Origin: Norana najaformis
Taxonomy: Eukaryota > Annelida > Clitellata > Crassiclitellata > Hormogastridae
Direction of reading: 5' to 3'
Length of the DNA: 64,000 nucleotides
Assembly (NCBI GenBank): GCA_964023275.1
Contig: OZ029913.1
Span: 52,840,144 to 52,904,143, forward strand
Below, piece after piece: positions 1,683 through 62,000 of this stretch. Under the pieces are notes generated by a model. That model saw only the letters and a list, made by a program, of their open reading frames with translations, made no database searches and was not told the DNA's origin. Position 1 is the stretch's first letter. The number at the start of each line of letters is the position of its first letter. Both the position numbers and the translations under genes were made by a program.

Positions 1683-2291
<609 letters not shown>

Positions 2292-3575: not shown

Positions 3576-3584
3576 AGCCACTAC

Positions 3585-11800: not shown

Positions 11801-14800
11801 AGAATAATGTAATTAAGTCTGTAAGTATATTAATGTAAGATTAACCTATAAAAATGGTAATGTATTATATAGTGCAGTGCCGCCTATGCTCAATCTGTTT
11901 ACACATCCATCCGCTTAATGCACAGTTGCAGCGTACCTCCCAATGCTACCTATTTTACACGAGAGATCCATTAATTTGCGATGCAAGAACTTGCTGTGTG
12001 GCAGAATTTTCATAAAATCAGTGCAGACGCTGCACTGGCAAACACCCAGTCTCATCATCATTTTTTTAGACAGTCTGTAACAGCTGCCTGGATATGCAAC
12101 AGCAGTTGATGGCTGCAGCTGGCTTTAAGGCCTTCAGAAATATACAGTTCCAAAGCAGGCAGACTTAATATAGTTACTCATGTCTCCACTCCCTGACAGC
12201 TAAAGGGACCACATCCAGTAGCAGCTGTAGTTGAGGTATATTGTGGTTCTTGTGCCCCTACCTCCCACAGCCAGGGTCATGGATTTAATCTTCAGTCACA
12301 TCAAACCAAAACTGAGCTTGGGAACTATGCCTCTGTGTTAAAAGACTGAAAATGACCTTCAGTCTGATCAATTCTGCAGCATTTAAAGGTCAAAAACGAC
12401 TATAATTTCATAAAAATTTTGCAGGAACATTCTAAAATTTTGATTAAGGCTAGTGGACATTTAACTGAGTAAAATCAAATGCAACCAGACTGTTGAGCAA
12501 ACAAGTGACAAGCAGATGTCTTTCTTGCTTCATGATGTTTGCTTACCAACAGTACAGCTGTAACTGTTTGTGAAACCATAAGATGGGGTTAGGCTTAAAA
12601 TAAGTTTGAAATCCTAGGTACCTAATTCATTTGCCTTTTCTAGTCTTGAAATTTTCTTGGGTTATTGACAAAATTTACAATGGCATTTTCTTGAACTCTA
12701 GTTTTAAATGACTGGTTTGATGTATTTTCAGTTGGGTATCATCTATAAAGCATGCAGTTCAAAAGACATTCGAAGAGGTCTGTTCAGTGCTACTTTTGCA
12801 AATGACGTGAAGGAGTGGTGCTTGCTCAACCTTGATAATGTCATTCAAGTCTATGTTGGAGCGAGGTTTGTGGATTTTCATCTTATTATATGAGTGTGAT
12901 TCACACACTTAAAAGAATTTAAAGTGCACACTTTGAATCAGTTTATGCACCTGTAAACACTAGAAGCTTGCTATCTTGCTGTCATTGGGAGCCATGTGAA
13001 GAAATGCTTTATAACAAGTTTGTTTTGTAATGAAGTTATGTAAAGCTGACCAAAATATAGAATCCATGGTCGTGTTACTTCAGAATCCATGTTATCGTGA
13101 AGCCATTGTAAAGAATTCCTTGTGTATGTTTTGCCTAAGTTTTTATTATGCTTTTTGTTTTAAACTATAAATCAGATTTTCATTTGGTGTTTCTCCCTGT
13201 AAAGTTAGCTTGAAAAGTGTTACTGTTGCCTGTGTGTGCAATGGTCGTGGAATGACAAGCTTCCTAAAACATTAGCTGTTTTGTGTGCTTTAACTGCAAT
13301 CACAGAATGTATACAGAAGCTTACATCTTGCAGTAATGGTAAAGAAAACGTCCAACCAAGTTAATTTGCTATTTTTATATTTAAGGAATGCTGCAACTCA
13401 TGTCATAGAACAGGAATTGATCTTTGCGGGAGATGAAACTGGTAAACTGATGGCCTTGAGAGAGCTCATACGTAAGGTATTCCTTTCTTTTCTGTGCATT
13501 GAATGATCCTGTCTGTCTTTAAGCTAAGGCTGTGGGCATTTTTCTTCAAGATTCTCTCTGAATGTCTGATGTTGGTGGCAAGTGATGGGAATTATTTAAT
13601 AATAATAACAATAATAATATTAATAAGAGATTAAGTAAAGTTTTTAATAATGATAAGAGATTAATGCATTTGCAAAGATTACTTATTTTTTATGGCAACA
13701 GATTACTGTAATAGTTTATTCACATTTTGGTTTATCTCTGTTGAAACTGAATTTGTTTTTTGCCAGGGCTTCCAACCGCCTGTGCTCGTATTTGTGCAGT
13801 CGAAAGATCGGGCAAAAGATCTCTTTCATGAATTATTTTACGATAAAGTCAATGTTGAAGTTATCCATGGCGATAAAACTCAAGCACAAGTAAGTGAGAT
13901 TGCTGACTGGGTTGTTCAAAAACTTTATGGTTTAAAGGACTTTAGAAAATACTGAGTTGAAAGAAACAGATCAGTGAGTTGTTTATTGCTATATTTCTTT
14001 TAGTTGGTTGTAGCTGGTGCACAATTGGCCTCTCAAGATGAATCATCAGGCTGCTTCATTCTTTTTCAGGAATTCTGTTGTGTAATTCAGTCAATGTTTT
14101 TACCTGTTTTCTTTCAATCGTCTGACTTGTTAACCTTGGACTTTTTTCAGTCATCTTATATTTAAAGCTCACTTCATTTGCAGCCTTTGGGGACTAGTTG
14201 GTCATGTGCATTTGAACAATGACTTAAGCACTTTGTGCTTTTGCGTGCATTGAACCCATCTTCCATGACCAATCTTCCACCACGGATCAGAAATTTTTAG
14301 CAGTTGATACAGCTCCAGAAACAGTTTCAGCTTAGCTTAAGTTGCACCGCACCACTTTAGATCAATTGAACATTTATGCTTCATTGCATGAGGGGTTCTT
14401 AAATGGCATTATGTATGTTAACATGCAAAATGAATACAAACATACACAACTTTGAATACAGAAGTTAGGCTTTGTGGTTGTTTACCACGGCTTAGAGAAG
14501 CCTCTGCATCATTTTCCACTGACGCAGCACCCAGATAGGTGCATTTTTTCTGCTGTTGAACTAAGGTACCTCAAGTAGGATTATTAAATTAAAGGATGCT
14601 GCAGATGTTGCATTAAATTGCTGTATTGTATACCATAATAAATTATAATTTATTATGGTAATGCAATAATAATATAATAATTATTATATTGCCACTTGAA
14701 CAATCATTTATTATTAACATTTGATTAAAACCCCAAGTTCCGAATGAGCTCATGTTAAGCAAGGTTATGACTTCATTATTGCTGTCATTTTGCAGAGAGA

Positions 14801-22304: not shown

Positions 22305-29645
<7,341 letters not shown>

Positions 29646-35094: not shown

Positions 35095-35428
35095 AATCAC
35101 AGCCTGATTGGATTGCCATATGTCTGGAATAAACTCCCGCCTGAATTTCGACAATTCTGTGATCCATCATACGAACTCACCAACACTTACCTATTGCAAT
35201 TTTTGGGGCCACTCAAACGGGAGCGGTGGTGAAGGATTTCACACGATAAATTCATTGCAAAATTAGCAAGGTCGAGGCCAGGCGGCCGCTATATAAAATT
35301 GTGTACATTTACATTTAGTATGTTGTACATTTATTATGTTGTAACGCGTCCTCTGAGTAAGGCATTGTTTTATTAAGGTGCGTTATAAATATAAGTTGTA
35401 TTGTATTGTATTGTATTGTATTGTAGGA
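35095..35428 (+). mobile_element. LINE 3' end interrupted by a family B repeat
   Basis: A LINE ORF2 C-terminal piece (LPYVWNKLPPEFRQFCDPSY, about 35110-35170) is interrupted at about 35205-35325 by a family B repeat (GGTGGTGAAGGATTTCACAC, GGTCGAGGCC, GGCCGCTATATAAA). The LINE-type 3' end resumes (TAAGGTGCGTTATAAATATA) and ends in five TTGTA repeats (35394-35425). Confidence 0.7.
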
Positions 35429-35542
35429 CATAGAATACAGATTCCTTGACATTTAATCTACAGTATTCGGACGAACGTGTTGGGCTACTTCTTGGCTACG
35501 AGAATTGTGCAAAATGTTGACTTAGCGGCCATTCGTTTTAAG

Positions 35543-38500
35543 ATGGCGAATGGCAAGATGGAATCGTTTTACGGCCCGGTTAAACCCCAATTTGGTAAGC
35601 ATACAATGCAAATTAAGCACCGTTGAGCAACGAAGTATATCGGATTTGATCAAATGTAAAAGACTGCGTGCAACGGTTAGATTAGATGGCGTTTTTGTCG
35701 AAATTTAGCAGCAAGATTATTAGTACGCATTGTGTTCTTCGCAATTCAAGTAGACTTGCAATAAAATGTTAGGCCCGGTAGTCTTGGTTTATTTGTAGTT
35801 GATAAGGGTTTCGTTTAATTTTATTTTAAGGTACGCGATAGTGTAGTGCTTTCTGTGCTGGATTGTGAATCCTGAGGTGGAGGTTCAAATCCCCGCCAGG
35901 ACAAAAATAAAATTTCAGCTCCTTTAGCGCCGCTTAGCGAAAATGAACTATAAATGAGTACCCTGGCCGTTTACTGTTGATGGGAAGGTCAGGCGGCGAG
36001 GGTAGGATTAACCACCCATCCGCATATGCTTCATCTTATGCCCATTGCATTTTTATTTTTATCACTTTCACTTGTTATTATGCATAGAGAAAAATAACTT
36101 ATGCATTGTTACAAATTCAAAAAAACGAATGGATTTTGAATGAAATTGCTCTTTTAGACTTGAAATTTTTTTAACTTAAGCCAAATTTTTAATCAGATGT
36201 ATCATGTAGTACATTTATTTCACCGATCATCCACATTGTCTGATCATAGCGATGATTTTCAGTGAAAAACTTTATCACAAATTGTTGGATGGATCTCAAT
36301 TGTTTTACATTCAATTATAAATTTTTTACTGTTTTGCCTTTGCTATTTAGTATGTTATCATAAAATTTGGCTACATATAATTTCTGATTATAAGTGATGT
36401 CACTTCACTTGATCTTTGCAACTTTTCAATTTGGTTTAATGTTCATGTGTAGAGAAAAATATTAAAAGAATAAGAAATGTCAAGAGTAAGATTTTGGTAT
36501 TTGACATTATTTTGGTGAATAATTAAATAATAATTGTGCCCTGGATGTGCAGATGCACTTCTGGACTCAGTTCTGACTAGGCATATATCAAGTCAGTCTA
36601 ATTTCAAATTGCCCCTTGATCTTAACTTGGTTTTATCGATACCATGTCATTTAGTAATTTTAACCAGACCAGGCCGATATCCAGTTACAGGCTGTTGACT
36701 TAATTAGATTAGATCTCAACCTGATAAGCCTAATTTTAAAATGGTAGTTGATCTGAGTTTTATTCGAGTAATATTTCAAATCGCCAATCAAAAACTCTGA
36801 GCATTTAAGAGATTGAGTATGATTCACCCTTCAGAATAAGAATCAGTCATAAGTGAAAACATGACTTGTCTGTCAAGTGTGATGAAAAACATCAAACCTG
36901 ATAACTGGAAAAGATTAGAGGTTGTCCACATTTGCTAACAGTGGTATAACGGTAACACTGATGGTCAATGGTTGCGCAGTTGCAGGATCGTCTTCATGTA
37001 ATGACCCTGGGAAAGTTGTTTGCGCACACTTCCTCTCTCAAAGCGGTATAATTTAGGACCGACATAAGCTAGGAAGTAAACAGCAAGTCCTTTGATGCAC
37101 AGGGCCAGTGTCCAGGACCTTGGGATTTGTCTGTTGTCTGCTTAAGAGCCAAAGTGATGGAATTAGCACAAACCCTAAGTTTTTTTGTGAGACATGCAAG
37201 CTTTCTTACTTACCTGTCAAATGGCTGGATTCAGGAAATGATGACGACTGCAACAAACTAACCTTGTACCTAATGAGAGTAAGTTCAGAAACACCAGACA
37301 ATCCCCACACCAAACAGGAAAATTGTAAATCAGATCGGGAGGTTCCACGACTCCTGATGTCGGATTAAATCAAGGCAGATACACTGTAATCTAAGCTAAA
37401 GACTTCTATAGAACTGTTAATACAATGTTCTAGGCATCAATCAATGGTCACTTCAAGTGTAAATCGCTGTAGGGAGGGCACTGAAGTTTATCGCTGTGAT
37501 GCCAAGAATCACGCATGATGGGGAGCAAGGGTGAAGAGTAAACCTCTTTTGGTAGGATTCTGTCATGGAAAAGTGTGTCTGAATCCTACCACTCTCTTTT
37601 TGTAGGCAGGGACTGGAGTTGAGTAGCTGGCTTAGGGCATCACCCATGTCCCTGACAAATTCCAGCATCAAGAAAATCAGTTTGCTAAAAAACTAACCAA
37701 AATAACATTCTTATCATGCTGATGTACAGCCATGTGTGGAATGAAGCCTATTGTGGTTGACACAAAGGTGTCATTAATTAAACTAGTTAACATTATCACT
37801 TAGAGTCGTTTTATTTAGTCTGCTTTTGGTTAATACACATGTTTTACACAGGGTAGAGAATCGTGAGTCAAGTCAAAGCATTATACTAAATTTGAATTAC
37901 CAAATGATGAAATAGTTGCAGGAATATCTTGAAACTGAAAATTTTGTTGAATTAGGGTTGAAAAACAGAATTAGAGATATTTATTGATGCAACAGATTTC
38001 CCTGTGATTTGTTCCCAATGCCAGTATGAATATCAAACCAGGCAGAGAATGTTTATCTAAATAAGTCTGCTTCTAACAAGTTACACAAAGAAAAGTTTGA
38101 TTAAATCTGGAAAAGTTTGGAATAAATAGTACATGAATAATATGACTCACACATTTTGAGTCTCATGTTATGAGTATATTATTATTGCTTAGTTTATTAT
38201 TAATATGTGATTCTTTTGCAGTCATTTGCATGCAAAATAAGTGAATAGATTCAGATTAAATCACCACCAAATGAACGAGAAATGATCTAAATTCACCTTT
38301 AATGTTTTATAGCAGAATCGTTATTAGCACAAATCATCTCATTTTGTCATGGTGAATCTGATGTATGGTTTTTGTAAGTAACTGTTATGTGAAAATGGTT
38401 TTGACATAATGTAATGAAATGTCAGATGCTGAGAGCACAATTAGCTTTAACTGGTTTTGTACTGAGGATTTGGTAAAAAAGGCAATCAGTAATTATTAGA

Positions 38501-41500
38501 ATTAATGCTAGTTTCTCTTTGACTTTGAATTTTCTGATTAATAATACTGATGCAGCGTTGCTTACATCCTGGTGTGGTTTGGCTTAACTGGCACGCAGAC
38601 TTAGTGTAAAAAGTTTATTTCTGTTAGCCTGGTTTCTTTACAGTCAGCGTAAATATGTAACATCAACTGTGTATCATGGATGTTTTGACGTGATCTATAT
38701 TGTAAATAAAATCTGCAGCTGTTCCAACAATGAGAATGCCTCGTGGACAGAGCTATCGCCGTTCTTAGTTTTAAGATGTTATGGGACTGCAGGCTCAAGC
38801 AGAGGTATTATTTCATAAACTTCTGGAAAAGTCTAAATTTGACCACACAGAGCCCTTAATGGAGTCTGTGTGTGTGTGAGTAAGGAATTTAAGTTCTAGT
38901 GAGTAAGGTAAATGCTTGCTTTTGAATCTCAGGAACTGAACAGATTCATCTGGAGGTTGTAACATGTGCAGCAAAGTTGTATTTTATCAGTTTTAACCGA
39001 GTCTTTTCACCAACAAAAAAGGATTAGACTCATGGAAGTTCTGTAGTGCTCTGAAATTGCAGCCTTCCAATATGTTTTAAGTTGAGATTTGTGTAATCTT
39101 GACATGTTGACTACTTGCACTCCATGGACAGAAATCTAAAATTTACTCTGCATGAAAATAGACCGTGAAGTGGTCTTTAGTTTTACCTCAAATTTCCAAA
39201 CTTTTTGGGATCTTCGATGGTGATCATGCTGGCTTAATTTCATATACAGACTAGCTATTATTTATTTGCTGTGCTAGTCAAAGAGATGAGAGGTTAAACT
39301 TCACTTTCATTTCTAAAAAATATTTTGGTTTGTAAATTTCATAATGTACTGCATTTTGGCAGATTCAAGTTAACTGCACTGCATTTTGGCAATCTTCGAC
39401 ATTAAATAGGAGGATGCAGTTCATTGTCTTTTGTTGCCTTGGATTGCATCTGAAATCTGGTAAAAATTCCTCGTGCAAAGTATGAATAAATCAAGTTTCT
39501 CATTTTCCTTGATTTATCACGTTCAGTATAGTGTAAATAATCCCATAAGAAAGTCTTCAAGAGGCGACATGAAGAAAGTCAACATGCAAGCCATTTATTT
39601 GTAGCCTTTTTATCGCTTTCTGATACAGCAGAGCATGAAAAGGCTATGCTTAAGTTGCTGCATGAGCTGTTTGCCTTCTGAATGGTTAACTGGCAAGGGA
39701 AATAAATGCAGAGTAAGTGGAAGGTGTTTGATTTAAACGGTAGAAACTCAGATTATTTTGTCACTAAATGCAATCATGTGAATGTGATGGAGTTTGTTTT
39801 ATCTCTCAGAAGGAGATGGAGAGGATGGAGATGGCGCACCACGTAAGCGCAAGGTGAAAAATCGAATTTTGCACCTGACGGAGCTTATGCCTGATGCCAC
39901 GTTCCAGTTAGTTGCACAGTATGGCACAACTGATCAACCTAAATACGTCATGGAAATTGAAATCCATAGCCAGGTAATAATACACCTGATAAATAATAAC
40001 TTTTTAAAATTCAGGGAAGAAAAGTCTTAGGCTTTTTTAGGTTGTTCAGGATTAAGAAGAGTCCAGAAAGATGATTTAATGTTTTAAGCAGAATAAGAAG
40101 CATGAGTTAAAATAAGAAGCACGAGTTAAAAGTATATACAAGGTGTTTTTATAATATATTTTGAAAACCTCGGCAGCTCTTGCAGTTGTTGACATCATTA
40201 GGCTAGGGTGCAATGCTGGCAAACACAATCCAGGTAAGCAGCATCCAGTTTGGTTGGTGCTTGGTAATTCCCAGGCAAATTACTATCTGGCCATCTGGGC
40301 CAACTTCAATTTCTTGATATTTTTGCCTGCGAATCAGTCATTTCTTAGAAAAATGGTGAACGGCAAAGCTCAGTTGTTGATCTTGCACCTCATCTGTTCT
40401 AAAATAAAATACATCGGTCAACAAATGCTGCAGTCCCTAATTTTTAGGGAAATCCAGTCGAGGTCAGAAACATTTTATTGCTATAGTGAACTTATGTAGC
40501 ACCTACAGATATATTCAGAGATGCTTCCAGTAGGGGAGCCCCTCCAAAATAGGTTAAGTACAAGAAACTGAATTAGCAGAGCTGTCAAAACAACTGTTTA
40601 TAAGATGTATCTTTTACCAAAAGCCAGTTTAGTGCTTGTTGTGTTGATATTTGAATAAAGTGCAAGTTTTAGCACCATTATCACAGTTTAATACAGAGAT
40701 CTCAAACACAAGGCCCACAGGCTGCATGCAACCCTCAGAATCATTTCAGAAGTTCTGAAATATTTGACAGTGTAAATTTATGCTCACTTACTTTTGCCCT
40801 GATAGTAAATTAAACCCCGTCAGACAGCCTTTGAGTGAAAGAAATACAATTTGCGGAAGATGTGTTTTCCAAGCCAAATTGGAGAATTCATATTTTTTGA
40901 TGAAAGTAAGAGAAACTTCTGTGCATTTTTGGTATACTGTTGAAGTTCTGAAAGAGTATACTGTGTGTTGGCACTGTTACACGTGATTCATTGTGAAAAA
41001 CATGAAGCAGTCATGGGAAAACCATGAGAGACAAGAGTTCATAAACTGAAAGCTGGATAATTTGCCTAGCAGAGAAACTTGTTTTTAGTATTAATACGTC
41101 TGGCAAAGATTTGGTAAGATAAAGTTTTGTGATTAGCAAATTGATACCCAAATCATAGCAGCTTATTACAGAAGGCCAATTCATAAAAGAATATCTTTTG
41201 AAGTGTAGCAAAATTTTGTCCTGATAAGAAGAAAGTTTTTAAAGGTGTGAGCTTGTCTGCCAGTCTTGCCAGAAGGATTAGAGATTTAGCAGATAATGTG
41301 CAAACACTGTTCAGGAGGCAAACTGCTTCAAGTTGAGTTTAATATCATATTACGTTACTCCTGATTTATCCATTTTTGACTAACTTTTGCGCTGAGTGAA
41401 AAGAATTAAGTGATGCCTTGAATTAACTGATGTATTAGTCTTCGTTGGGCCCTTAGAGTGATCTGAGATTGAGACCTCTGGTTTAATAGAAGGTTCATGA

Positions 41501-44500
41501 CAGAATGAACCTTGTATTAAATGCTCTTCGTCTGCTGTAGGTTTTCCAAGGTATTGGACCATCAAAAAAGCGAGCCAAGGCAATGTGTGCAGATTATGCA
41601 CTTGTCCATCTTGGAGTCATTGACAGAGTGGATGAAACTCCCTCTGACGTGGTGGAGGATGTTGAGAGTCCTGACGACTTCACCGCTGACATATCTGACC
41701 AGAGTACACAGCTATACTACGACTTTAGTCTCCCAGAGTCTGAACAGATTGCTGAACAGCCAAGAGAAGATTTCTATGCAGATGATGATGATGATGATGA
41801 CTTCATAAATGAAATTGACGATGTGACCCTACAGCTTCTGGGCAAGAACCCACTCACAATCATGGGTGAGTTACGGCCTGACGCAGTCTACACACTGTTG
41901 GATGAAACTGGTGACCCACTTCACCCGAAATTTCTTATGTCGGTGACACTGGATGAGGAAACATTCCAGGGATCAGGTCCAAGCAAAAAGTTAGCCAAAG
42001 GCAGAGCTGCTCGTGACGCTTTACGCAGATTCTTCAACCTCGAGTTTGGGACTTCAGAAAGTGAGTTGCAGTTGTACATCATTTGTCTTCAGTTTGAGTA
42101 GTGAATATTCTTATAGATTTTAGTTATACAGATTTATTATTTAAAGTCTTATTTCTAATGCTTTTGATACTTTTCATGGCTACTCTAAGATTTTGCAGCT
42201 TATAATTTGCTTCCATGCTACTATTCATGTCCATAATACTGGAGATATCACTGGACAAAGAATTTATGGAGACAATCTAGACTGATGCACATAAGTTTGT
42301 TGTAATTTTTCCTGAATTAAATGTTTGTTGTAATGCAGCAAGAATTATAGGCGTCTAATCTATAGAAGTTTGAATGCTCTTGTCATTTATAAATAATACA
42401 TGCCAATTGTTTACATAATGCAAGTATTTAAGAGCTTTTACAAAATCACGAAGAAAATGCATTATAACTACCTTTGTTTTATTTCAGATGGAATGCCTAT
42501 ATATGAAGGCGATGCTCGTATCTGGCAACATTTCAAATCCAAGCTGGAAGGTAAAGCTCAGGAACGACTTGACATGAGTAGAGACCCGGTGGTCGTCCTT
42601 CAAGAGTATTTTCCCCAGATTCGTTACTCTCACCGTGAACCTGTGGAGCGAGATGGTGTTATGCAGTACACCACAATTGTGAACATATTCGATGAGGTTT
42701 ATGAAGGTGTTGGTCCCTCAAAGAAGGATTCAAAGGCTGTGGCTGCAGCAAATACCCTGGATGCACTGAGGCGCAATGGTGTGCTGTCTGCCAAAGAGAG
42801 AGAAGTGGAGGCTGACAGAAAGGCTGCAGCACTGCAGCCACGTATCCCAAGTCTTTTTGAGTCAGAGAAGAAATCGGTTCCAGTGCAGAGAAATGCTGTG
42901 GCTAAACTGAATTTGCTTTATCCAAATCTGGAGTATCAGCTTATGGCTGAAAAGCCTGTGCGCAACACACTGCTTACAGCATTTGTCATGGCAGTTGAGG
43001 TCGAAGGACGCAGTTTTGCAGGAGTCGGAAAGACGAAGAAGGCAGCCAAAGTGGAGGCTGCTGAAAAGGCACTCAGGTACTTGAGGATGTGGACACGTGA
43101 GGATGAGGATGCTAAGGAGATGACGCTTGCCGAAGACACGGATCCTGTGGCGTCAATATCAATGCATCGTGAAAAGCAAGAGGCCAAAAAGGCTAGACTG
43201 ATGCAAGGGAACTGGGGTGGCGGTCCAGAAGGAAACTATTGGGGCGGGCCAGGGCCTGACCAGAATATGAGCTGGCGAAATGACATGGGAGAGTGGGGAG
43301 ACAATCAGATGGGATGGAATGAAGCACCAGGTAGCTGGGGAAACCCATTCGGTGGTGGACCACAGTGGGGTAATAGAGGAGACAATGGCTCAAATTTTAT
43401 GGGTGGCAGTGGTGGTTCATTTAATGAAATGCCTGATATGGGACGTGGCTTTGGAGGCGACAGAGGAAATTTCGGAGGACGGAGACCGTTTGGCAATCAG
43501 GGAAGAGGAATGGGTCCTCGTGGCAGCTTTGATGGCGGATTTGGTCCCAGGGGAGGAGGCAGTATGGAGCCACGAGGTGGAGGCTTCTTTGGAGAAGGAA
43601 TGCAGGGAGACAACCAACGATTCCGAGGTCCTGGAGCATTTTCTGGCCCTCGAGGTGGATTTGGTTCCCCAGATGCTTCAGGCAAAGGTGGCACTGGCAG
43701 AGGTGGCATGAGGATGCCTATGGGCGGCAATGGTGGTAGTGTTGCAAGCAACAGTGGCATAGGACAACAGAAGAGATTTCCCAGTTCACCATCTTATGAA
43801 GGAGGCAGCGCATATGGAGGTAGCCAGTTGAGACCTCCCAGCCAGCCAGGTGTTATGAGCCAGCCTGGCACAGATACATCAAAAGGTGTTGGCAGAGGCA
43901 GTTTTAAGTCACAAGCAGATAGCACTTCAGGTGGAAACTTCCGGCCTGGAAACCCGAGAACTCCCACAGCAACTGTCAAACCTCCTGTGCTTCCTGGTGT
44001 GGCACAGAATCCCAGTGGCAAGCCTCTTGGTGCTGCTGGGCTTTCCAACAGTCCGGCACGTGGAATCCTGAAGTCTACTGCCACTGGTACATTCCAGTCG
44101 GGTGTGGCCTCAGATAACTACCAGTATGGAATGACAGGAAGTGCAACCGGTTCTAATAAAGCATCAGAAATTTCTGGAAGCTATCAGTCAAGCCTTGGAG
44201 CCAACCGAATGTACTACCCTTCGGAAGGTTACCAATCTAGCGGAACAGGAATGACCGGATACCAGCAGCCACAGCAGCAGCAGCAGCAAATGTCGAATCT
44301 ACAGTCGGGAACCACCATGAATTACCCAGCTTCCTCTTTCCAGACGACCACTACTGTTGCTGCAGCTGGATACACAGGCACATCGTTCCCAACAACTGTT
44401 GGGTCATCTTTCAGCGATTCCAGCTACATGACGGGTAGCACTTACGGAACTGGGTACTTTGGAGGATACGGTGGCACGATGGGCTCTGTCCAGGGCTACG

Positions 44501-44712
44501 GGTATGAGTACATGACTGGATATCAAGTTCCAGCAGCATCGACTGATCCAAACTATAACATGGGCAACTATGGAACCCAGCAGGGCAGTGTCAACAGTGG
44601 CTATTATGCCGCTGGTTATGATTACTCTCAGACTGGTGCCACCAACACTGGCACCATGGATAGCTATGGAACTGGCGCCTCTGGGTCTAGTACGATGAAA
44701 ACTACTTGGTGA
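35543..44712 (+). CDS. Protein with four dsRNA-binding domains and G/S/Y/Q-rich tail, 4 exons, 986 aa
   Basis: Exons 35543-35594, 39810-39973, 41541-42060 and 42488-44712; phases 1, 0, 1 agree and the total is 2961 bases. Four dsRBDs: about 32-100, 174-240, 278-342 and 380-446. Each keeps the C-terminal lysine signature that contacts dsRNA: GPSKKRAK, GPSKKLAK, GPSKKDSK, GKTKKAAK. Domains 1 and 2 are separated by an acidic linker with a seven-Asp run. Residues 450-986 are low complexity: Gly/Trp/Asn-rich, then RGG/FGG-rich, then Ser/Gly/Tyr/Gln-rich with a short CAG-coded Gln run (near 44262-44290). The layout recalls ILF3/NF90-NF110 (dsRBDs plus RGG and GQSY tail), but there is no DZF domain and there are twice as many dsRBDs. 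It probably binds structured RNA in ribonucleoprotein granules or the nucleus. A frame beginning at 42400 reads through intron 3 and is not the true start. Confidence 0.92.
35830..36045 (+). repeat. tRNA-derived SINE (family C) in intron 1 of the dsRBD gene
   Basis: GTACGCGATAGTGTAGTGCT, then GAGGTTCAAATCCCCGCCAG (B box), then a body with ACCCTGGCCGTTTACTG and AAGGTCAGGCGGCGAGGGTA, related to the heads in the 20.7-21.7 kb array. The rest of this 4.2-kb intron is AT-rich with no gene. Confidence 0.75.
36940..37165 (+). repeat. SINE family E, copy 1 (dsRBD gene intron 1)
   Basis: Shares GACCCTGGGAAAGTTGTTTG, AACAGCAAGTCC and GTCCAGGACCTTGGGATTTG with the more complete copy at 51829-52117. The tRNA-like head is diverged. 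Confidence 0.65.
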
Positions 44713-46420: not shown

Positions 46421-46424
46421 GATC

Positions 46425-46625
46425 GTAATCTCTAGGTTTCTTCAGCATCCAAGAAAACCAGTTTGTGGGATTCAGCTTATTCAGAGGCACTCAGTGAAAC
46501 CAAACTTGGTAGGCAGCTAAGGTCAGGTTCAGTTCCAAGTTGAGATCCAAGAGTCGGGCAAATAGAAGGCAGTAGGAATAAAGAAGAGAGAAGAAACGAT
46601 AGAGAAAAGAAGGAATGAAAGATGG
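46425..46625 (-). mobile_element. Family A LINE tail, minus strand
   Basis: GATCGTAATCTCTAGGTTTC, CAGCATCCAAGAAAACC and GAGATCCAAGAGTCGGGCAA match the family A tail. It is followed by a purine-rich GAAGGAA-type stretch (46580-46760). Confidence 0.6.
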
Positions 46626-48129: not shown

Positions 48130-48795
48130 GTGACATTTTGTTCATCTACACCTTCCTTGAGAGGAATTAGAGACGGTAACAAGTTTTACATTCTTGGGAT
48201 CAGTAGTAGAGAGAGAAGGAAAGTGCGATAGGGAAATAAACCAAAGGGTGGCGATTGGAAAAGCCGCAATGAATGGATTAGAAAAAATATGGAAAGACAA
48301 ACATGTGAGCACAGACACGAAAAAAAAGATTGGTGAGGGCCTTGATTATACCAACAGTAACATACAGCAGCGAGACGTGGACAATGACTAAGAAAATGGA
48401 GAAAAAAATCAATGCTTGTGAAATGTGGATATGGAGGAAGATGCTGAGAACATCATGGACGGAGAAAAGGACTAACGAATGGGTACGCATGACGATTGGA
48501 ATTGAGCAAGATGAGACGTTACAACAAACAGTGCTAAAATCAAAGCTGAGGTTCTTTGGACATGTTATGAGATCAGATGGATTGGAAAAAGAAATGATGC
48601 TGGCTTGTGGAGAGGGAAAGAGAAAACAAGGGAGACCAAGGAAAAAATGGATGGACAAGATACATGAAGCAACTGGAATGAACTTGGCACAACTAAGGGA
48701 TGCGACATTGGAAAGAAAGAAAGGAATGGAGAAGACTGATCATGACGGTCGCTAGAGCTCAAAGAGCTGACAGCACAAGGTGACAAGGTGACACC
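48130..48795 (+). mobile_element. LINE ORF2 C-terminal fragment, longer copy
   Basis: Frames broken by at least two shifts encode typical ORF2 C-terminal features of a non-LTR retrotransposon: DREINQRVAIGKAAMNGLEK, VTYSSETWTMTKKMEKKINA, CEMWIWRKMLRTSWTEK and [19 protein letters not shown]. The 3' 250 bases are almost identical to the insertion at 25740-25986. The end carries a short AAGGTGAC duplication. Confidence 0.85.
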
Positions 48796-50089: not shown

Positions 50090-53000
50090 TCAAAGGCAGG
50101 TCAAACACTTTCTCTTGGCTGGCGTGGGTGTTACTCGCTGTTGTGCAAACTGCTGTGGTTGTGACATTCGTGTATTTTTCGGCCTCCGACGAACCAACAC
50201 TACCACGAGGATGATTATCAGCACAATTACAAGGAATCCAATTAATGCACAAAGAACAACAAGTGTGATGTAACCAGAAGTACCGACTTCAGTTGGATCT
50301 GAAGATAATTTTAAACAGAAATCATTAAAAATGATTTGATTATAACATAAAATGGTTGATCACGAATATTTAAAAGCAAAATATCATTTGCTGGTGGGAT
50401 TTTCTGTGTGATTAATTAAGTTAAAAGAAGTCACCAAAAGAAGTACGCATAGTACATTAACATTCTGTTTCCAGCATAGGACAGCACTTTACAGCAACTC
50501 AACATTCTATACAAGAGATAAAATATACTAATATCATATATTATGCATATATTACATAAATCCTTTTGCTACCATCTTGTTGTGTAATTTATCTACCACT
50601 TGTACTGCCAGAATTATGACAGTTATCTGATCCATCCTATGAACTTGCCAACACGGCACCTTTTGCAATGTCTGTGCACCTTTTGCAATGTCTGTGCACC
50701 TTTTGCAATGTCTGTGCAGGTGTTTCACTCAAAACTGACAACCCTCCTAATCCCTTCCCTGATTCTTCTTCCCCCTATCTTTCTCGCCGCTCCAATTCCA
50801 TACACCATCCTCCATAGCCGTCTGCCTGCCTTACTCTTGGATCTTGACCTGGAACCATTTCTGACCCTTCTTGCCTATTGCTTTTGTTTTGACTGAGCAC
50901 CTGTGAATAAGCTGGTTAATTTGAACTTTTTACATAATGTTAAAATCAGTCAGGAAATTCATCTTAGTATTTACAAGGATCTAAGTCCTAATATGAACAG
51001 CATTCATTTGCTTTTATTTATGTACAATGGTGCCAAATAATTTTCCAACAGATGATGTTTTCCATAAATTTACTGAAAGATGATTTGACTAAATTAACAG
51101 AAGTGCTACATATACAGAGCAAAACTTGATTGTTTAGTGCCAGATGATGGCACTGCACACAAGAAGTGGTGGTGAAAGATCTTACCAAATAAATTCAGTG
51201 AAATGTGAGCAGGGTCGAGGGCACACTGCTGTAATTGAAACACTTGCACATGCATACTTACACGTGCACACACAGATGCGCAGAAACTGCATACTGAGTG
51301 CTTGCCTAAAGTCACGACACTGTCTCGAGTAGTGTGAATACTTACTGTAGGGCTTTGGACTGACTCTAGGATCAATAACCCTGAGGGCAAGGGTTTGATT
51401 CACATGAGTGATGCCATCTGCTGACTCACTTCGGCGTTTTCTCGTTGGCAGAAACTCTTCCCTTTTCTTCCTCATGGACTGCATAGCTGCGCAGTAACTC
51501 TACAGTAAATCAGACAACAGTTTTGCATGTAAATCCATACTTCTGAAAGAACATTTTCTTAATAGCAGTAGACTGCTATTGTACATAATATACTCTAAAT
51601 TGTCAAAGCACTTACATGTAATGTGACTTGCTAGTTATTTATATATATACAACAAACTAGGTTGCATACTTGTATCTAAGAAACTGACCATTGTACAACC
51701 ATAGGCTGTATTTGGGAAACTGTATAGCAAGACCAATATGATTCCTTTTGCATTCTGCCTTTGACCCCTAATGATATAGACCTGTGTTTATTTTTCCTAA
51801 ATCAGTAAAATTAAGCGACCAGACTGAATGACACAGTGGTCTATTTGGTTAGTGCACTGGGTCAACAGTTGAAAGGTTGCAGGTTCAAGCCTGCCGGGGA
51901 ACTCTGTGTAACGATCTTGGGGAAGTGTGTTTTCGCACACGTGGATCTGTCACGAAGCAGTACAGTTTGGAACCCGCATAACCTGGGAACTAAACGGAAA
52001 GTCCAGCAATGCACTGGACCTGTGTCTAGGACCTTGGGATTTGTCCTTTGCCGGCTCAGAGGCCGAACAGTGGGAAATGAGCACCTCCGTTACTATTATT
52101 ATTATTACGAAAATTTTTAACGTGCACGAAGTCGCACAGAAATGTGAATCGGAGGCGCAGATAGTAAGTCGCCACGTTAAAAGAGTTAGATGTCCAGATG
52201 TTTGAAAGTCAGTGAGACAGTGAGTTTTCAGGCATTTTTCTTGAAGGAAGAAAAGCTGTTCGGAGAACAGTTCCATTCCTTCGGGGCAGCGGTGTGGAAA
52301 GCATGAGAGCCTAGGACAGTTCTGCATCGTGGCTCAGCCAAGACACGCATACCTGAAGATCGTAGGCTGCGGGGAGGGGTATAAGGAGAGACTAGTGACT
52401 GAAGGTAGGTAAGAGTGCTCATGGTAAGATTTTTATAGGTCATACAGTCTAGTTTAAATCATCCAGAATTCTACAGGAAGCCAGTGCAGATGGCTTAACA
52501 GAGCTACGGAATTTGTGCAAGGAGGTGTGCGCACAGCACCACAAGATCCAGGGAATTTTAGATGCATTGAAGCCTTGTGAGTTCAAGATTTCAGATACCT
52601 GTAAAAATCAAGTTGGCATAATCACAGCAGACTAGAGAACAGGTTACAGTTTGTGCCATGTCTTTGGTAAGAGCAGACCTGATATGACGTTATGCCATGA
52701 TGTGATAGAAACAAGATTTGCAGAGGTTTGTTATGTGAGGTCAAGATATGAGACTGCCGTCAAAAATTACCCCCAAGTGTTTTGACCATGTTTGATAGTG
52801 GAACAGCAGTGCCAGCTAGTTCAGTGCTGGAATGTGAAGGGAAAGAACACAGACGTTGGCGTGAGCCAAACATGATCGCCTCAGATTTATCCGGATTTAT
52901 GGCCAAACCACTGAAACAAAACCATGCATGAATAGAAGAGACACTCTTCAAGCTTTACTTTGCCTGACTGATCAGTGGGTGACAGAGCAATCTAGAGCTG

Positions 53001-56000
53001 AGTATCATCGGCATATTGCTGTAACTTCACTCCAAAGTGGTTGGCTTTGCGGCTGACTGGTGAAGTGAAGATTGTGAACAATAATGGGCCAAGGACAGAT
53101 TCCTTTGGAACACCAGCAGTGCGGATAGAAGGATCAGACTGAGCACGTGTAACCTATGCCCACTTGCTGAGACTGATTGCAGATGTAAGAAGCTAGGCAG
53201 CTTAAGGCTGTCCCAGACACATCAAAGCTTTTTCTTATTCTAGAAAGAAGTAGATGGTGGTCAACAGTGTCAAAAACAGCACTAAGGTCGAGGCACACTG
53301 AAAGGCACATTACATTCCTTTTAGGACATTGGGAGCTTACTTTAATCCATCAGTTTCCATCTATCTCTACCTGTACAATGCCTGTATAAGTACTGCCTGT
53401 CCTCCTTTATGGGGTTGATGCTTGGATGCTTCCATGGCCCATGCGGAGGATGCTGGATGTTTTCCAGCAATGGTTCCTCAAAAGGATCCTGCAGATTCCA
53501 TACAGTAAGTTACTAATACCATACAGAAATCTATGGACACAATTTGTAGCTGATCCAGAGAAGGAGGCTTCAAATATGTTGTACGAGGTCAGACAGGATC
53601 ATGGCAAAGCATTCGAGCAATCTTCTTGTACAGATTTAAATACCATGGAGTCCACCACCATCTGGATCCACCGCTTAACTTCAGGTTACACACAACCAAG
53701 ACAGGGACAGCTAGAAATGTGTTGTGGAAAAGTTCTGCAGAGAAGCATGCCATTGATTATGATGTTTTGGTCTCCCACTTGGCATTAATTATATTCTCAG
53801 AGTTACAAATCTCATCAACTAAGCTTTTTCAAGCAAATATTGAGATTGTAATAACAAAAATTAATAACATTATAAGTAGCAAGCTACTTCTAGTGTGCTT
53901 TACAATATCAATTGTCAGTGCAAGTGCTGAAAGCTAAATAAAAGATAGAATTTCAGTAGTTCAACGTACGTTATTTAGCACTAAATGGCCTGTCTTAGAC
54001 ATAATATGGACCTACAAACTCTTCAGCGCTCTACTCTGAACTCAGTGTACCTTTGGTATTTATGAATGAAAAATTGACATTTAAGACATTCATCAAGAGA
54101 TGACTGGCTGTTGGCTACACGTCACTATAGCACAGACAACAACCAACAACTGTTAAGGAAAGACATTATTGGCAAACAGGATGTCCAGAGGCAACATTGA
54201 TCAAATAAAAAATATGTGATGCTCTAACACTGGCAACAATCATGCTGTTGAATTTTATGTAGTCTATTTTGAGTTTTGTGTAAAAAGGTTGTAAAAATGT
54301 TTATTTTCAAAAACTTAGTCAAAAATCTGCCTGCACAGTGTAACTTTTAAGCAACCAACTGGGTACGTTTTTATTTGTGATGTCAGTCCTATTGTGACAA
54401 CCCAGTAGTTTTGTCAAGTATGATCAGAAAAAGCAGCAGAGAACCCTGCAATACATTACTTACAATGTGCAGTAGGTTGCCGGCTGCAAACCGCCAGTGG
54501 CTATATTTTGAGGATTTAAATCTCAGGCTAGCACGGTCCATACTCGGGAACCTTAAATGGCATGGTGCCCATTCAAACAGGCAGCAGTGGCAAAGGATCT
54601 CACCTGAACAATTCATTGCAAAATGAGCATGGTAAAGGCCATATTGTAAGCTTGAGATTTCTACAGCACCCAACGAAAGCTAAGTCACAGGAACCAGCTT
54701 ACTTACAGACACTCAGTCAAAACAAAATCGGTAGGCAGGAATAATTTGGTTCCTGGTCAAGATCCAAGAGTCGGGCAAGTAGACAGTCAGACGGCTATGG
54801 TGGATGGTGTTTGGAATTGAACCGGAAAGTGAGATAAGGGGAAGAGGAAGAATCAGACAAGTGCCTTATTTAGAATAAAGCTATAAAATATTTTAAAATG
54901 AAGTCTGATGTTGCTATCATACTGTACTGTACCCTGGGACTTGAATAGAACTGTACTGCAACCCATTTTCCGGGGTGAACAATGACGAGTGTACATTTGG
55001 ACATTAGAAACTTCTTTTCAGCCAGACAAGATCACTGGAACCAGCTATCAGAAGAAATAATATCTGCACTGAGCTTGAACACTTTCAAAGACTGGACAGT
55101 TGGATGGAGAGATTAATTATTCACTCTATTTGTAACAACTACCCCAAACCTACCAGCAAGTGGCTGGGAAAATTTTCAACTGGCAAAAAAATTCATAATG
55201 AGGTCCTGTAAGAATAATAATTAGAAAACTTCTAATGTGCCGGTGTTTAATGCACAAGGCATCAATCGATCGAGCACCAAAGCCAAGCCACAATCAGATC
55301 AATAGCCAGAAGGTCAGTCCACACAACAGAGAGGAAGCCTATGGTGGATAAGCAATTTGAAACAGGTAAGTTTTAAGTTGAGAACAAAATGGCAGAAGGG
55401 ACTGAGCAGAACAAACAGACACAGGGAGAGAGTTCCAGAATTTAGGTCCAGCAACCGAAAAAGCCCATTTACCCAGAACAGTTCTAGTCCAAGGTATGAC
55501 CAGAGAAAGACAATCAGAAGAATAATGGTAAGTCTGGAGGATAAGGACTGATTTTAAGTATTGTAGTTGGCCAGAAAGTATTGAGGTTGGCCAGAGTGAC
55601 ATGACATCACATCGTGGACAAGGTTACTCTCAGACCAGTACAGTACAAAAGTACAAAAGTCCAGTAATGACATTGCATTAAGACGTTAATTTGATTAATG
55701 TGCAGCAAAGTCATGCCTACCAATGACACCCACACAGTAGTCATTAACGCATCGTATGCAGACAAGCAATACGCAGCATCCGACTCACTAGCATGGCAAA
55801 CAGCAGTACAGGTACATGCAGTACAAGTACTGCTACTGTAAAGGCATTTCCTTATTTCACCCTTTTCCGTGATTATCAATATTGGTGAGACGTATCACCT
55901 ACATCTGTGCCCTCATGCTCTCGCTATTTGCACGTATATGTATCAATATATGGACAAAATTATACAAATAATTGATATGTAGAAATTATTAGATCCTTAG

Positions 56001-59000
56001 ATAGCTTCAGCATCAGTTCCTTTTCCATGAAAGAAAATCCACAAGTCACATTTCTCAAAGGTTATTATGATGACTAAACAGCCAGGCCAAACTACAGATC
56101 ATTTTACAGGCATAGATTCTAAAGAGGTCTTCATCAAAAACGTGAAGTGCTATTCAGTAAATTCAGATGCAGACAAGGCCATGTGCATGCAGTTTGCTCA
56201 GGCGAGGCAAAAAGACACTGCCAATTATTCAGACAGTGGTAAAAACTTTGGAAATTTAGTCATTATAGCAGAAGATGACTGAATGATTCCTACACAAAGA
56301 TGTGGTTAAAGTACTATGCCGCCATTCACAAGTCATTTGAGGCATAATTACATCACTGTAGACTACTGATACATGGCATACAGCATCTGGTAATAAATCA
56401 CGAGAAACTGTTTTAACCTAACTAGAAAATGTTCATTTAAAACAGTAGTTTTAATGTATTTCATAGCTAAAATTTATACTCTTTGAAAAGTTTTAATGAT
56501 GACTTTCTGGGTGTGTAATGTGCTAGATGCACACGTGCTAGATGTACATTTCTGTTCATATTTTTAAAAATTGAAGTCAGTAGGTCTAATTAATAAGGAC
56601 ACTATAAATGCATATAAGAATAAATAGACCTATATTAGAACATTTAATATGCAGATTCTGAGATTTTTCAGCGTAATTCAGTAGCACACATTATCAAGTT
56701 GCCTCAAAGCTAAAGCTATGGATATGAGCAAATAACGATAATTGGTTCATAAACGATAAATGGTTCATACAAAGAAACTTACCCTGGTAGGCTGCTGACA
56801 GGGGTCATAGCCAACAAAACACATCTTCATTGCACAGTGAAGATAAATGTACTCGCTGCTTGAAAGACGAAATATTGGAACAAGTTGAGTGTTACTAACA
56901 AATGTTGCATTTGTTGACATTTCTGATGTCCAGTACCAACTATCAGCAGTTGCTTCATCCTGAATAGGACACCTACAACATTAGTACTACTACTAATAAA
57001 ATCACAATAAGAATAGTGATAATAATAACAACGATGTTGATAATAATAATAATAATATAAGCACAGATGTATCTATCACTGATGCTTGATTTCACAGCAA
57101 TAACCATTGATATTTTCCATCAGCTGAATAATTTTTGCCAAATATTTTGAACTTTATACATATGAAGCTTTAGGCTATCATAAATGTAAATGTATTTGTT
57201 TTTCTTTCGCAACCACAAGGCTTCAACCCTAATCATTTTTAATGAATTTATTGGGTGTGAACTTTCACACTGCTTGAATGGGTGCCACACCACTTAGGAC
57301 CCCATGTCTGAACCATGCTAACCCAAGATTCAAATCTCTTAAATATGCCTATGACTGCTCAGAGGTGCTTTGACATAGGCTTTAACGATAGTAGTTAGTG
57401 CTACTAATGGTATTTTCATGATGCCGACAGTTGCCACAGTACTCTATTGCTGAAACTTAATATTCCAGTCAGTAAGACGGCAAATAAGGAAAGATTGTAA
57501 AGTCTTCATGCATTCTGTCACATGATGGGTGATACTGTCTTAGTAATGATAATCGTCATCATAAACTAAAGAATTTCTAAAGTGCTACTTAAAAGTTAAG
57601 CACAGTGCACGGGCTTATTCATGACTTCTGTTTAAAGTCAGAGGAGTTGTCCAGAGATATCCTGTGAAGTACAAAATCCGGTTGCCAGGAGACCCAAGAG
57701 AGCAGGCAGAGGAGCTGTTATGGTGGGTTGGTTTTAGCCAGAGTGAAATGAAGAAATGAAGATTTGAGAGCTCAGGGTGAGATTTCTTAAAAAAAATGGG
57801 ATTCTGGTTTTGAATGGAAAGCCTGAGGAGTGACAGATAGAGGGGCTTAAAACAGATGATGGTGAGTGAACTGTGGATAATAGGAGAATTTGTGGAATTC
57901 AGGAGGGATATTACTCCATGTGCAGTCAAAGTGCAATGAGGTATATGAATCGGTTAGCGAATGTATACTGAATAGTTAGAGAACAAAGCAAATACTGAAA
58001 CAAGTAGAAATTTGCCTTACATCTGTGCTTGCGTTGGTTAGTAGTGCTGACTTACCCTTTGAGAAGCAAGACTCGTGTTTCTGCTTTGGGGTCTGGCATG
58101 ATAAAAGATGTAGACATGGTACACGTCCTCACCTCCAGACTGTGATAGATGCCTGTTCAGTTGAAATAACAACATATTAATCCTCGTGGGCAAGCAACTG
58201 GTACTTAAACCAATTCAAATTTGTTCTGTTGGCTTGACTCAGTCAAAGGGCCACTGAATACGTTTGTTTTCCTAAAACAGGTTACCTACATGGCTGAGAG
58301 ACTGTGTGATTACTTTACATTGCATAAGGAGGTCAAGTCTCCATATTCAGTAGCGGAAGAAATGCTTATTTCCTTCATATGAAACACTAACTTATGGAAC
58401 TTATTGAGAAAGCAAATTCAACAAATGTCTCAAAAGTGGATTTTCTAACAGTTTTGAAAACATATTGCTATCGAAGGGACCAGCAGCAAAATCTAATATG
58501 CAAGATTGGTAACACACGCCTGAAATGAGAATTTATGTAGCTTGAACATGCAAATAAAAAAATGCAAAACACAAAAAACAACAGATTTAATCGATTTATA
58601 ATTACCATCTCTTGTTAAATTAATGATAAATCTAACATAGTCTCCCACGCGAAGTTCTGTAGGCCCACCACTGCCTGTCAGTGGCCGATTGAAAGCATCT
58701 GTTACTTTCAGAGTCAGAACTGGTGACACTTGCATGCCTTCATCACCATACCTTCAATATACAACGTAATCTCTAAATTTATTATAATTAGTAAATTTAT
58801 TTATTTGTTGTAATTAGTAAATTTATTTAATGGCCCCTTCCTGGAAGAGGTGTAAAGTATTTAAATTTATGTCACTTTGCAGTAGGGCTGCTAACTTTTG
58901 ATTCTGCCAATCCGGGACACCTGCATAGTCACTCGATATGCCACTACCAACTTACCCCATTTAGGGCCTATAGCTGGATATCCGCTACCACCGTTGGCAC

Positions 59001-62000
59001 AGTGCGGCCCAGTTATGTGCCCAATGAACATGGATTTCTAGGTAGAAGGAGTAGACATTGTAGAATTTGGCCAATGCATACAATACATGAACTAGAAAGG
59101 AGCATCAGGCTGGACCGGGCGGTCCAGTCTTTTTTTCACAGGCCAGGCTGAGCTGAGCTTGTGGCGGGCCAAGAAGTTTAAACAGCGTGATGCATACTGA
59201 GATAAGCACTGGACCAGGCCAAGCCAGGCCACAATTTTTACGACGTGGGCCGGGCCGCAATTTTTCGGCCCGTGCTCTACTCTACCATGAACTCATTGGA
59301 ATAAACAATGCAGTAGTACATTTTCATCATTCTGACTCTTCTGCAGTTGACCAGATTATATATTAACTTGATCGAGGCTTTGCGCGTTTTTGTCGCATGG
59401 TGGCTGATTTTGTTACATGACAGCCAGGCGGATTCAAACTTCCCCATTAGATGGTCACTGTGTATGGGACATTGAGCAAATCCTAAATGTCCAGCTGTTG
59501 ATTGATCCTCTGTAAGATGACTAACTTCTTCAAGAAAATAAAAAAATAACAGACAAAATTTGAATACGCATCTAAAAACGGATGCTAAAACACTTCTGAT
59601 GCGTGATTCAGTTTTAAGGCCCAACTTCCGATTTAGATGCAGTGAACACTTTTTATGCAACAAAGGCCTGCTACTTGTTTAAGATTGTGGACCCTCTGGA
59701 AATGAACCAATTTGTAGATGGGGGTTGGTGAGCCAAAAATAAAACTGAAATCACGTGCAGTTATGCAACAGCGCTAAATAAGTTCTGAGATGTTTTTAGA
59801 TTGGATGCTCAATTGCCATTTCAAATTCTCCCTCTCTTTCATCACCTGAAGTAAAATTCCATGCTTCATTGGCTCTCTGATTTCCAGCTGTCATTTACTG
59901 TGCTTTGTGACTTATTATTTACTTACTATTATTTACTTACTATTATTTAAGCACTAAAGAAGATCAATCTTTATTTACTTACAATTATTTAAGCACTAAA
60001 GAAGATCAATCTCTTAAGCTACAGATGAGTATGCAGTGTTACTGACTTCATTATATTAGCCAGACAGTGTACAGTCAGTGTACACATATTAGCTGAGTTG
60101 GCTACACTGAATACCAAGTTAACTTTTGTAATGATTTCCTCCAAATATTACATAGAAACTGTAATACCTTCACATAATATGCATCATCACAATGCTTATT
60201 CTGATTTAAAATGGTCTGGGACATAAATCCGAAGAGAAATTCAGCATTGGGTAATGACATACCTGTTATGTTGTTTCAAAGTTAAATTTAGCTCATTGTT
60301 TCAGTTGTTGGCATATTTAACCTACTATGTCCAGTAGGGCCAAAGTTTTATGGCCTATGTTTTGAAACCAAACGGCTTGTCAGCTAGCTTCCCTGTTGTA
60401 GGGTCAAAATCATCTGGTTCACATAATACCTTTGGCCATAGCAGGGTGCAAGCTGTCTGTACTCCCGAACTATAGCCTGTACATGACGGATGCTCAGTGA
60501 TCTCTGCCTGCTACCTGAATCAGCTGGTGCAAGTGCTTCGTCGTTATAATGTTACTTGGTCTGCAGTGTAAGTAGTCCTTCATTTTCATACTTATAGTAA
60601 CTGTAAATCAGTAGGCCCATTTTAGTCTTGTATAGGCTGCAGTGTACTTAACTGGACTACAAGTTTCTGCTCTCTGTATTTAACAGTTTGTGATTATACC
60701 AAATGTCAAGACAAAAAAGGAAACTTTTTAACTCAGAAAAAACTTGCAAAATATTTAAGATAGAGTGGCTGAACGAGTGTAACGAGACTGAACTGCCTTA
60801 ATCAAGTGCAAAGCAAACCATTATGTTAAAGGAAGTTTTAACATATCAACCATTATGTTAAAGGAAGTTTTAACATATCGTGACATTTCTGATGATGTGC
60901 TTAGCAACACACTGGCAAAGGCCAACACTCATGGCGATGTCACCACTGGTAAACAATGAGAAGAACGGAAGTTGGATTATTTAAAGCGACAACACACACT
61001 AAATTCATGAGGATTCCATTACAAAAACGTTGGAATAGAGATAAACAAGGCAAAGGAATCAACCATGCAGCCTTTCTAGCTTAACAGACATGCATTGCAC
61101 GAAATCAACCTGGGTCATAGTATGGTCATTGGCAATAAAAGCACATGGGATCGTCCATTAAGGGCATCCGCATAGGGGAAGGAGGGTCCCCAAAACGAGA
61201 AAAAAGGGAGAGGGTTATGCCAAATATTTGGCATTTAAATTTGATACATATAGTCATTTCAGCATAGCCTATGCTTTAAACGCCAACTTCAGTCAGTCTC
61301 CATGCAGTCTGTACTTTGTTGGATCTAAATTAGAGTTGCTTTGCCACATGTGGCAGTATCAACTTACCCAATCCCATAGCACAGTTAGCTCTGCAAGATC
61401 AACATGGTAGTCTTTTTCTTTCTGCATGATGTGATTTATAGGCTTATAGTTTAGACCCAGAACAGATATGTAATCTTGCATGGACTAGATCACAGGTCCC
61501 AAAGGTTGGTCCCATGTGGCAGGCCAGTGCACACACATTGAAAAGCTAAAGGGAACACTGAATAGGGTGAGTTGTACCCATAGCTGGAGGCAGAGAGAAA
61601 GACCAGAGGACAACAGTATAATAAAATCATAGCACACATACCAGTGCAGTGCTAATCTGAAACAGTGAAGAAGAAGTTTCATCTTTTCCCAATTAGAGTA
61701 GCTTTGTTGGAAATGGCAATATCAAATTATCCCACAGCACAATTAGCTCTGAAAGATCACATTGTAGTCCTTTCAATGTAGAGAACAGCATAATATAAAG
61801 TGCAGCACACATCCAAGTATAGTGCTAGTCTGAAACAGTGAGGAAGTAGCTTCGTCCTTCTCTGTCTGTCTATGGAATGCATTTTAAGCCTTCATTTAAG
61901 AACGAGCAAAGAATAAAGACGTGAGAATGATTTTCTGACAGCCAAATTGAACTGAGTATTTAAGAGAATTTGACTGGTTGCCAATATGTTGCAACTCCAA

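Follow-up and report, generated by a model that had tools for sequence, protein, structure and literature searches.

The stretch of DNA considered here, 64,000 nucleotides from the annelid Norana najaformis (contig OZ029913.1; hereafter the window), carries a gene for a protein of 986 residues in which four tandem double-stranded RNA-binding domains (dsRBDs) are followed by a long low-complexity tail. The original prediction, an earlier reading of the same letters, had described four dsRBDs and an NF110-like tail without the DZF domain of ILF3/NF90, and this four-dsRBD, DZF-free gene is confirmed. The architecture is well supported, and from it we infer a function. It seems to us an evenly balanced proposition that the product is a non-catalytic binder of double-stranded RNA (dsRNA), lacking deaminase and DZF domains and bearing dsRBDs of the ADAR2/NF90/fly-Adar class, which would be nuclear and would occupy and concentrate dsRNA. 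This reading is suggested by the multiple dsRBDs, the lack of an enzyme domain, the tail, the basic stretch PRKRKVK and the precedents of ADAR3, NF90 and DIP1.

Detection and class of the four dsRBDs

A Pfam-A search of the protein, the check proposed with the original prediction, matched PF00035 (dsrm) over four stretches (E 5.7e-29), scoring 100.9 bits against a gathering score of 23 and so placing it among dsRBD proteins; two further related dsRBD models matched over the fourth copy, and nothing else, DZF and deaminase included, was found up to E 1. An independent dsRBD profile, made from 11 reference domains with the window's own copies left out to guard against circularity, was applied to 1582 stop-free stretches, each 25 residues or longer, from both strands. 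At E below 0.5 it matched only three open reading frames, all belonging to this gene, with one further match at 0.54. The four tandem dsRBDs are borne out by both routes, dsRBD3 in part by the profile, and 33 residues precede dsRBD1 by the border used here (31 by the border of the earlier reading, which had given about 31). Below-cut-off NCBIfam scores for RNase III (59.1 bits, cut-off 166) and a seadornavirus dsRNA-binding protein (31.4 bits, cut-off 125) reflect the shared domain only.

A PDB search with residues 1-487 was led by the ADAR2 dsRBD pair (4.7e-30), with ILF3 next (2.6e-18). Copy by copy, the ADAR2 pair again came top for all four (dsRBD1 7.9e-20, dsRBD2 8.4e-31, dsRBD3 1.4e-05 and dsRBD4 3.5e-21). 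The block of residues 34-250 is 33% identical to ADAR2 80-310 (4e-29), and residues 12-237 are 28.5% identical to ILF3 369-589 (5e-22). Individually, dsRBD2 is 51 and 50% identical to ADAR2 dsRBD1 and dsRBD2, and dsRBD4 is 52 and 40% identical to the same two domains; to ILF3 these two copies are 41-42% identical, compared with 51-52% to ADAR2 dsRBD1, and ILF3 identity overall is 34-42% for copies 1, 2 and 4.

The connection between alpha1 and beta1 points in the same direction. In a 15-row alignment it is short in all four window copies and in all six ADAR2, ILF3 and fly Adar rows, and in none of the other five rows, which are TARBP2, STAU1, ADAR1 and PKR domains with a longer connection; the sequences of these five rows and of fly Adar dsRBD2, six among the 11 references, are not fully verified. 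When dsRBD2 is aligned to PDB chains, ADAR2, ILF3, STRBP and fly Adar fit without any net change in length, while TARBP2 and ADAR1 need 4-5 extra residues; RDE-4 (E 0.0083) also fits without a net change. The four dsRBDs seem to be of the ADAR2/NF90/fly-Adar class. ILF3's own dsRBDs are described as ADAR2-like (PMC4770229).

The linker between dsRBD1 and dsRBD2 also resembles that of ADAR2, with a score of 60 where shuffled sequences have a mean of 28 and a standard deviation of 5 and reach 60 or more in 0 of 2000 and 2 of 5000 trials. Its similarity to the ILF3 linker is not significant (175 of 2000 and 413 of 5000 shuffles as good), and the ADAR2 and ILF3 linkers show no likeness to each other (441 of 2000), whilst a provisional sequence of the fly Adar linker does resemble that of ADAR2 (11 of 5000). 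There is moderate evidence that copies 1 and 2 were inherited together, as one block, from the N-terminal half of an ADAR2-like protein. Further resemblances were tried and rejected: between the dsRBD2-dsRBD3 spacer and the ADAR2 sequence that follows dsRBD2 (equalled by 881 of 2000 shuffles), and between the dsRBD3-dsRBD4 spacer and the ADAR2 linker (279 of 2000) or the ILF3 linker (1336 of 2000).

Several observations weigh against an ADAR2-like, RNA-occupying protein. The identity of dsRBD4 to ADAR2 dsRBD2 (40%) is lower than to ILF3 (42%), fly Adar dsRBD1 (44%) or a provisional TARBP2 dsRBD1 sequence (42%), and dsRBD1 does not discriminate, since it is 38 and 37% identical to the ADAR2 domains and 34 and 37% identical to those of ILF3. 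The linker likeness falls to a score of 44, reached by 20 of 5000 shuffles, when a run of seven Asp residues is removed, and the linker is no closer to the provisional fly Adar linker than shuffles are (2719 of 5000 as good), with only DFTxD in common. The phylogeny of the individual dsRBDs, also proposed with the original prediction, was run and gave no placement: none of its 12 inner branches is well supported and the four window copies are ungrouped. Single-sequence structure prediction gave mean pLDDT values of 42.9 and 37.6 and was not informative. The lysine signature KKxxK, said to be intact in every copy, is indeed kept in all four (KKRAK, KKLAK, KKDSK and KKAAK), but this does not hold for the contact signatures overall. 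The second RNA-contact signature of dsRBDs, GPxH in the beta1-beta2 loop, is canonical in none, the His of dsRBD2 lying one position later, and the base-reading Met is likewise present in no copy. This Met is described as the adenine reader in the minor groove for ADAR2 and NF90 (PMC4770229). Because no copy has a canonical GPxH or the base-reading Met, RNA affinity could be lower than assumed.

The third copy is divergent, and equivocal as regards Staufen. Its ADAR2 match is weak, its second PDB match is STAU1 (0.0039), and among the 11 references, to which it is 24-39% identical, the highest is STAU1 dsRBD4 (39%), a further point against the class assignment. These values, together with the three to four dsRBDs plus a dsRBD-like domain described for Staufen proteins (PMC6477676), are what can be said for a Staufen-like transport or localisation factor in which some of the several dsRBDs do not bind RNA. 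Such a factor is very improbable, as Staufen matches are far weaker than ADAR2 matches for copies 1, 2 and 4, the window copies lack the longer alpha1-beta1 connection seen in both Staufen rows, and the Staufen C-terminal domain is not among the Pfam matches up to E 1.

The search for DZF and deaminase domains, and the tail

DZF and deaminase domains were sought in the whole window by tblastn with human queries checked against PDB chains. The ILF3 DZF domain (residues 1-385) gave a best E of 0.12, at 6830-6961 and 58889-59002, so the lack of DZF that had been claimed for the protein extends to the window. For the ADAR2 deaminase (306-701) the best E was 0.29, and a deaminase elsewhere in the window was rejected on this result. 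The same run recovered the dsRBD parts of ADAR2 (1e-22) and ILF3 (6e-11) on exon 3; an ILF3 match of 6e-20 on exon 4 is inflated, because with masking off it runs into the low-complexity tail. Thus the adenosine deaminase domain of an ADAR is found neither in the protein by Pfam nor in the 64 kb by tblastn, and the ILF3/NF90/STRBP arrangement of an N-terminal DZF and exactly two dsRBDs is replaced by four dsRBDs and no DZF.

The tail comprises 504 residues, 23% of them Gly and 12% Ser, with 4 RGG and 12 RG motifs; its first 190 residues contain 34% Gly and 10 RG, and G, S, T, Y and Q abound in its last 314, where there are 26 Tyr. This agrees with the tail of more than 500 residues, RGG-containing and then S/G/Y/Q-rich, that had been described. 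The NF110 tail has 27% Gly, 14% Ser and 11% Tyr (the part beyond residue 692 unverified). The resemblance is one of composition only and is no proof of descent.

Tail composition and the second-best PDB match (2.6e-18) are the grounds on which the gene might be taken for an ILF3/NF110 orthologue whose DZF exons lie further 5' and were missed. We consider this extremely improbable and reject a missing DZF on the tblastn search of the window; besides this, the protein has four dsRBDs where ILF3 has two, the block as well as copies 2 and 4 score better against ADAR2, the linker similarity is not significant, and NF90 and SPNR are called vertebrate-specific (PMC4770229). The dsRBDs generally resemble ADAR2 more than ILF3, so that the protein is not best described as 'ILF3 without DZF', and the NF110 comparison of the original prediction stands for the composition of the tail and not for the dsRBDs.

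Gene model and surrounding sequence

The four exons join in one unbroken frame of 986 codons plus a stop, with GT/AG borders and the frame kept at all three introns, which confirms the exon set first proposed. The two other frames contain 3 and 6 stops in exon 2, 4 and 24 in exon 3, and 19 and 44 in exon 4; exon 1, with 0 and 1, is too short to tell. The join of exons 2 and 3 is supported by the domain itself, as the dsRBD profile match ends at position 43 in exon 2 and resumes at 43 with the first residue of exon 3. The frame of exon 2 is open from 39788 but lacks an ATG ahead of residue 44, which already lies within dsRBD1; translation must therefore start in an exon further upstream. The ATG of exon 1 lies in a AAGATGGCG context, upstream of it an in-frame stop occurs with no other in-frame ATG between, and the exon ends in a GT donor with a phase that matches exon 2. 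The join of exons 1 and 2 is a prediction from splice consensus, phase and start codon, and not from homology.

An upstream open reading frame of three codons (ATG TTG ACT TAG, 35514-35525) ends 17 bases 5' of the start codon, and a piece of a dispersed repeat (35124-35316) sits 227-419 bases 5' of it.

The long open frame, the exact continuation of dsRBD1 across its intron and the retention of KKxxK in all four copies argue against a recent lineage-specific fusion of ADAR-type dsRBDs with a low-complexity tail that has no conserved role. Such a fusion, with which the lack of any relative among 249 pattern stretches in the viral contigs searched is consistent, seems improbable.

Table 1. Positions in the window of the dsRBD gene, its parts and neighbouring features
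Feature	Residues	Positions	Strand	Remarks
Exon 1	1-17	35543-35594	+	Start codon; ends with first base of codon 18
Exon 2		39810-39973	+	Acidic stretch, PRKRKVK, first part of dsRBD1 (profile positions 1-43)
PRKRKVK	28-34	39839-39859	+	Exon 2, before dsRBD1; basic stretch that we take to be like a nuclear localisation signal
dsRBD1	34-98	39857-41618	+	Split by intron 39974-41540; best PDB match ADAR2
Exon 3		41541-42060	+	Rest of dsRBD1 (profile 43-67 from first residue), linker, full copy of dsRBD2
dsRBD1-dsRBD2 linker	99-173	41619-41843	+	DFTAD, acidic run; resembles ADAR2 linker
dsRBD2	174-241	41844-42047	+	Full profile match 1-68; best PDB match ADAR2 pair
Exon 4		42488-44712	+	dsRBD3, dsRBD4, tail, stop codon
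dsRBD3	277-344	42580-42783	+	Divergent; partial profile match 32-66
dsRBD4	380-446	42889-43089	+	Full profile match 1-66; closest to ADAR2 dsRBD1
Tail	483-986	43198-44709	+	G/R-rich, then G/S/T/Y/Q-rich
First AATAAA 3' of stop codon		44817-44822	+	Candidate signal, from sequence only
p24/TMED gene		975-1682	+	Open frame; PF01105, 1.4e-41
Helicase C-terminal exon		13665-13955	+	Pfam 21.4, just below cut-off 23.5; presumably DDX52-like
Non-canonical poly(A) polymerase exons		24122-26877	+	NTP_transf_2 in 24122-24418, PAP_assoc in 26569-26874; presumably TENT4/PAPD5-like
Two ORF-end copies		25734-25987 and 48527-48784		96.5% identical, no Pfam match; first within poly(A) polymerase region; we take them to be retrotransposon-like
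(TA) repeat		2082-2290		105 copies, 99% matches

Dispersed repeats, about 70-84% alike in the listed pairs, lie at 3397-3937, 7481-7764, 15994-16168, 35124-35316, 46422-46559, 50697-50917 and 54643-54856. Searches of the window for Rfam families and for tRNA genes each gave no match.

Possible function and known counterparts

If the protein is a nuclear, non-catalytic dsRNA binder, its mode of action might be as follows. It would reside in the nucleus, judging from PRKRKVK before dsRBD1, and would bind long or hairpin dsRNA by several dsRBDs at once with little base reading. The RGG/YG tail could then cluster the bound RNA into foci, and by occupying dsRNA the protein may compete there with ADAR, Dicer or decay factors, or modulate their action. 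Lacking an editing domain, it probably gathers or shields dsRNA rather than changing it. Related behaviour has been described: ADAR3, seemingly inactive, inhibits Gria2 editing by binding, NF90 proteins are broad negative regulators of editing (both PMC8304401), and the condensation of Loqs-PD depends on dsRBD binding (PMC12276012).

Among known proteins, insect DIP1 (Disco-interacting protein 1) is the most likely counterpart, beside which the protein is set by descriptions and not by sequence. An orthologue of DIP1, longer than the fly form, with nuclear foci that depend on RNA, a part in the decay of stable repeat RNA from introns, and antiviral roles, is a possible though tentative identification; it overlaps the general reading as a non-catalytic binder, and the weights we give the two are not meant to sum. 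It has to be set against it that fly DIP1 is presumably a shorter chain, with two dsRBDs and without such a tail; we take it also to be without a deaminase. A tree of dipteran dsRNA-binding proteins comprises drosha, mle, DIP1, Adar, Dicer-1, Dicer-2, pasha, Son, tRNA-dihydrouridine synthase, Staufen, R2D2, Loqs and Loqs2 (PMC10809485). Of these, DIP1 seems to us the most fitting place for a protein that is ADAR-like but has no deaminase. For Aedes, DIP1 is described as orthologous to human ADARs, and dengue RNA rose when it was silenced (PMC9488832); in the fly, DIP1 binds dsRNA in the nucleus, loses its focal pattern and turns diffuse after RNase A, and lowers INE-1 intronic RNA (PMC5624886); and DIP1 is among the partners of Dicer-2 (PMC12058146). 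A separate lead from PMC9488832, AAEL004859, was rejected as it seems to be Dhx15, judging from PMC9731432, a paper with Dhx15 in its title and 33 occurrences of the tag.

A bolder and rather unlikely proposal is that the gene is ADAR-derived, in animals that lack NF90: with the deaminase lost, the dsRBDs doubled and an NF110-like tail gained, it would be an independently built counterpart of NF110, a DZF-free scaffold controlling editing and nuclear dsRNA, of which fly DIP1 would be a reduced remnant. Non-modifying dsRNA binders determine the extent to which RNA is edited, diced or recognised as foreign. NF90 and SPNR are both called vertebrate-specific (PMC4770229), and a protein with four ADAR-type dsRBDs and a tail like that of NF110 offers a concrete candidate for doing their work elsewhere. 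In the open-licence literature, by title and start of abstract, the matches listed for four-dsRBD proteins were Staufen papers, reviews and one DGCR8 paper; a deaminase-less ADAR relative of this kind was not among the matches listed, nor was such a protein among those listed for DIP1-centred literature.

Of the known systems, Staufen shares the presence of several dsRBDs in one chain, but has a longer alpha1-beta1 connection and a C-terminal domain not found here. ILF3/NF90/NF110 shares the dsRBD class and, by composition, an RGG then S/G/Y/Q-rich tail; it differs in its DZF and its number of dsRBDs, its linker is not significantly similar, and copies 2 and 4 are less identical to it than to ADAR2 dsRBD1. 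The N-terminal half of ADAR2 (ADARB1) has the same order of dsRBD1, linker and dsRBD2, the DFTxD of the linker, the short alpha1-beta1 connection and a basic stretch before dsRBD1, whereas the window protein has no deaminase, two more dsRBDs and the long low-complexity tail, and does not keep the base-reading Met and GPxH. ADAR3 (ADARB2) is comparable as a non-editing binder of ADAR substrates; we take it to retain a silent deaminase domain, none being detected in the window protein. Drosophila Blanks, set beside the protein by description, is an insect dsRBD protein whose NF90 similarity is confined to the dsRBDs and the basic stretch before the first (PMC7144943), but it is a recent fly gene with two dsRBDs. 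Insect DIP1 combines, by description, ADAR orthology in Aedes (PMC9488832) with nuclear dsRNA binding in the fly (PMC5624886).

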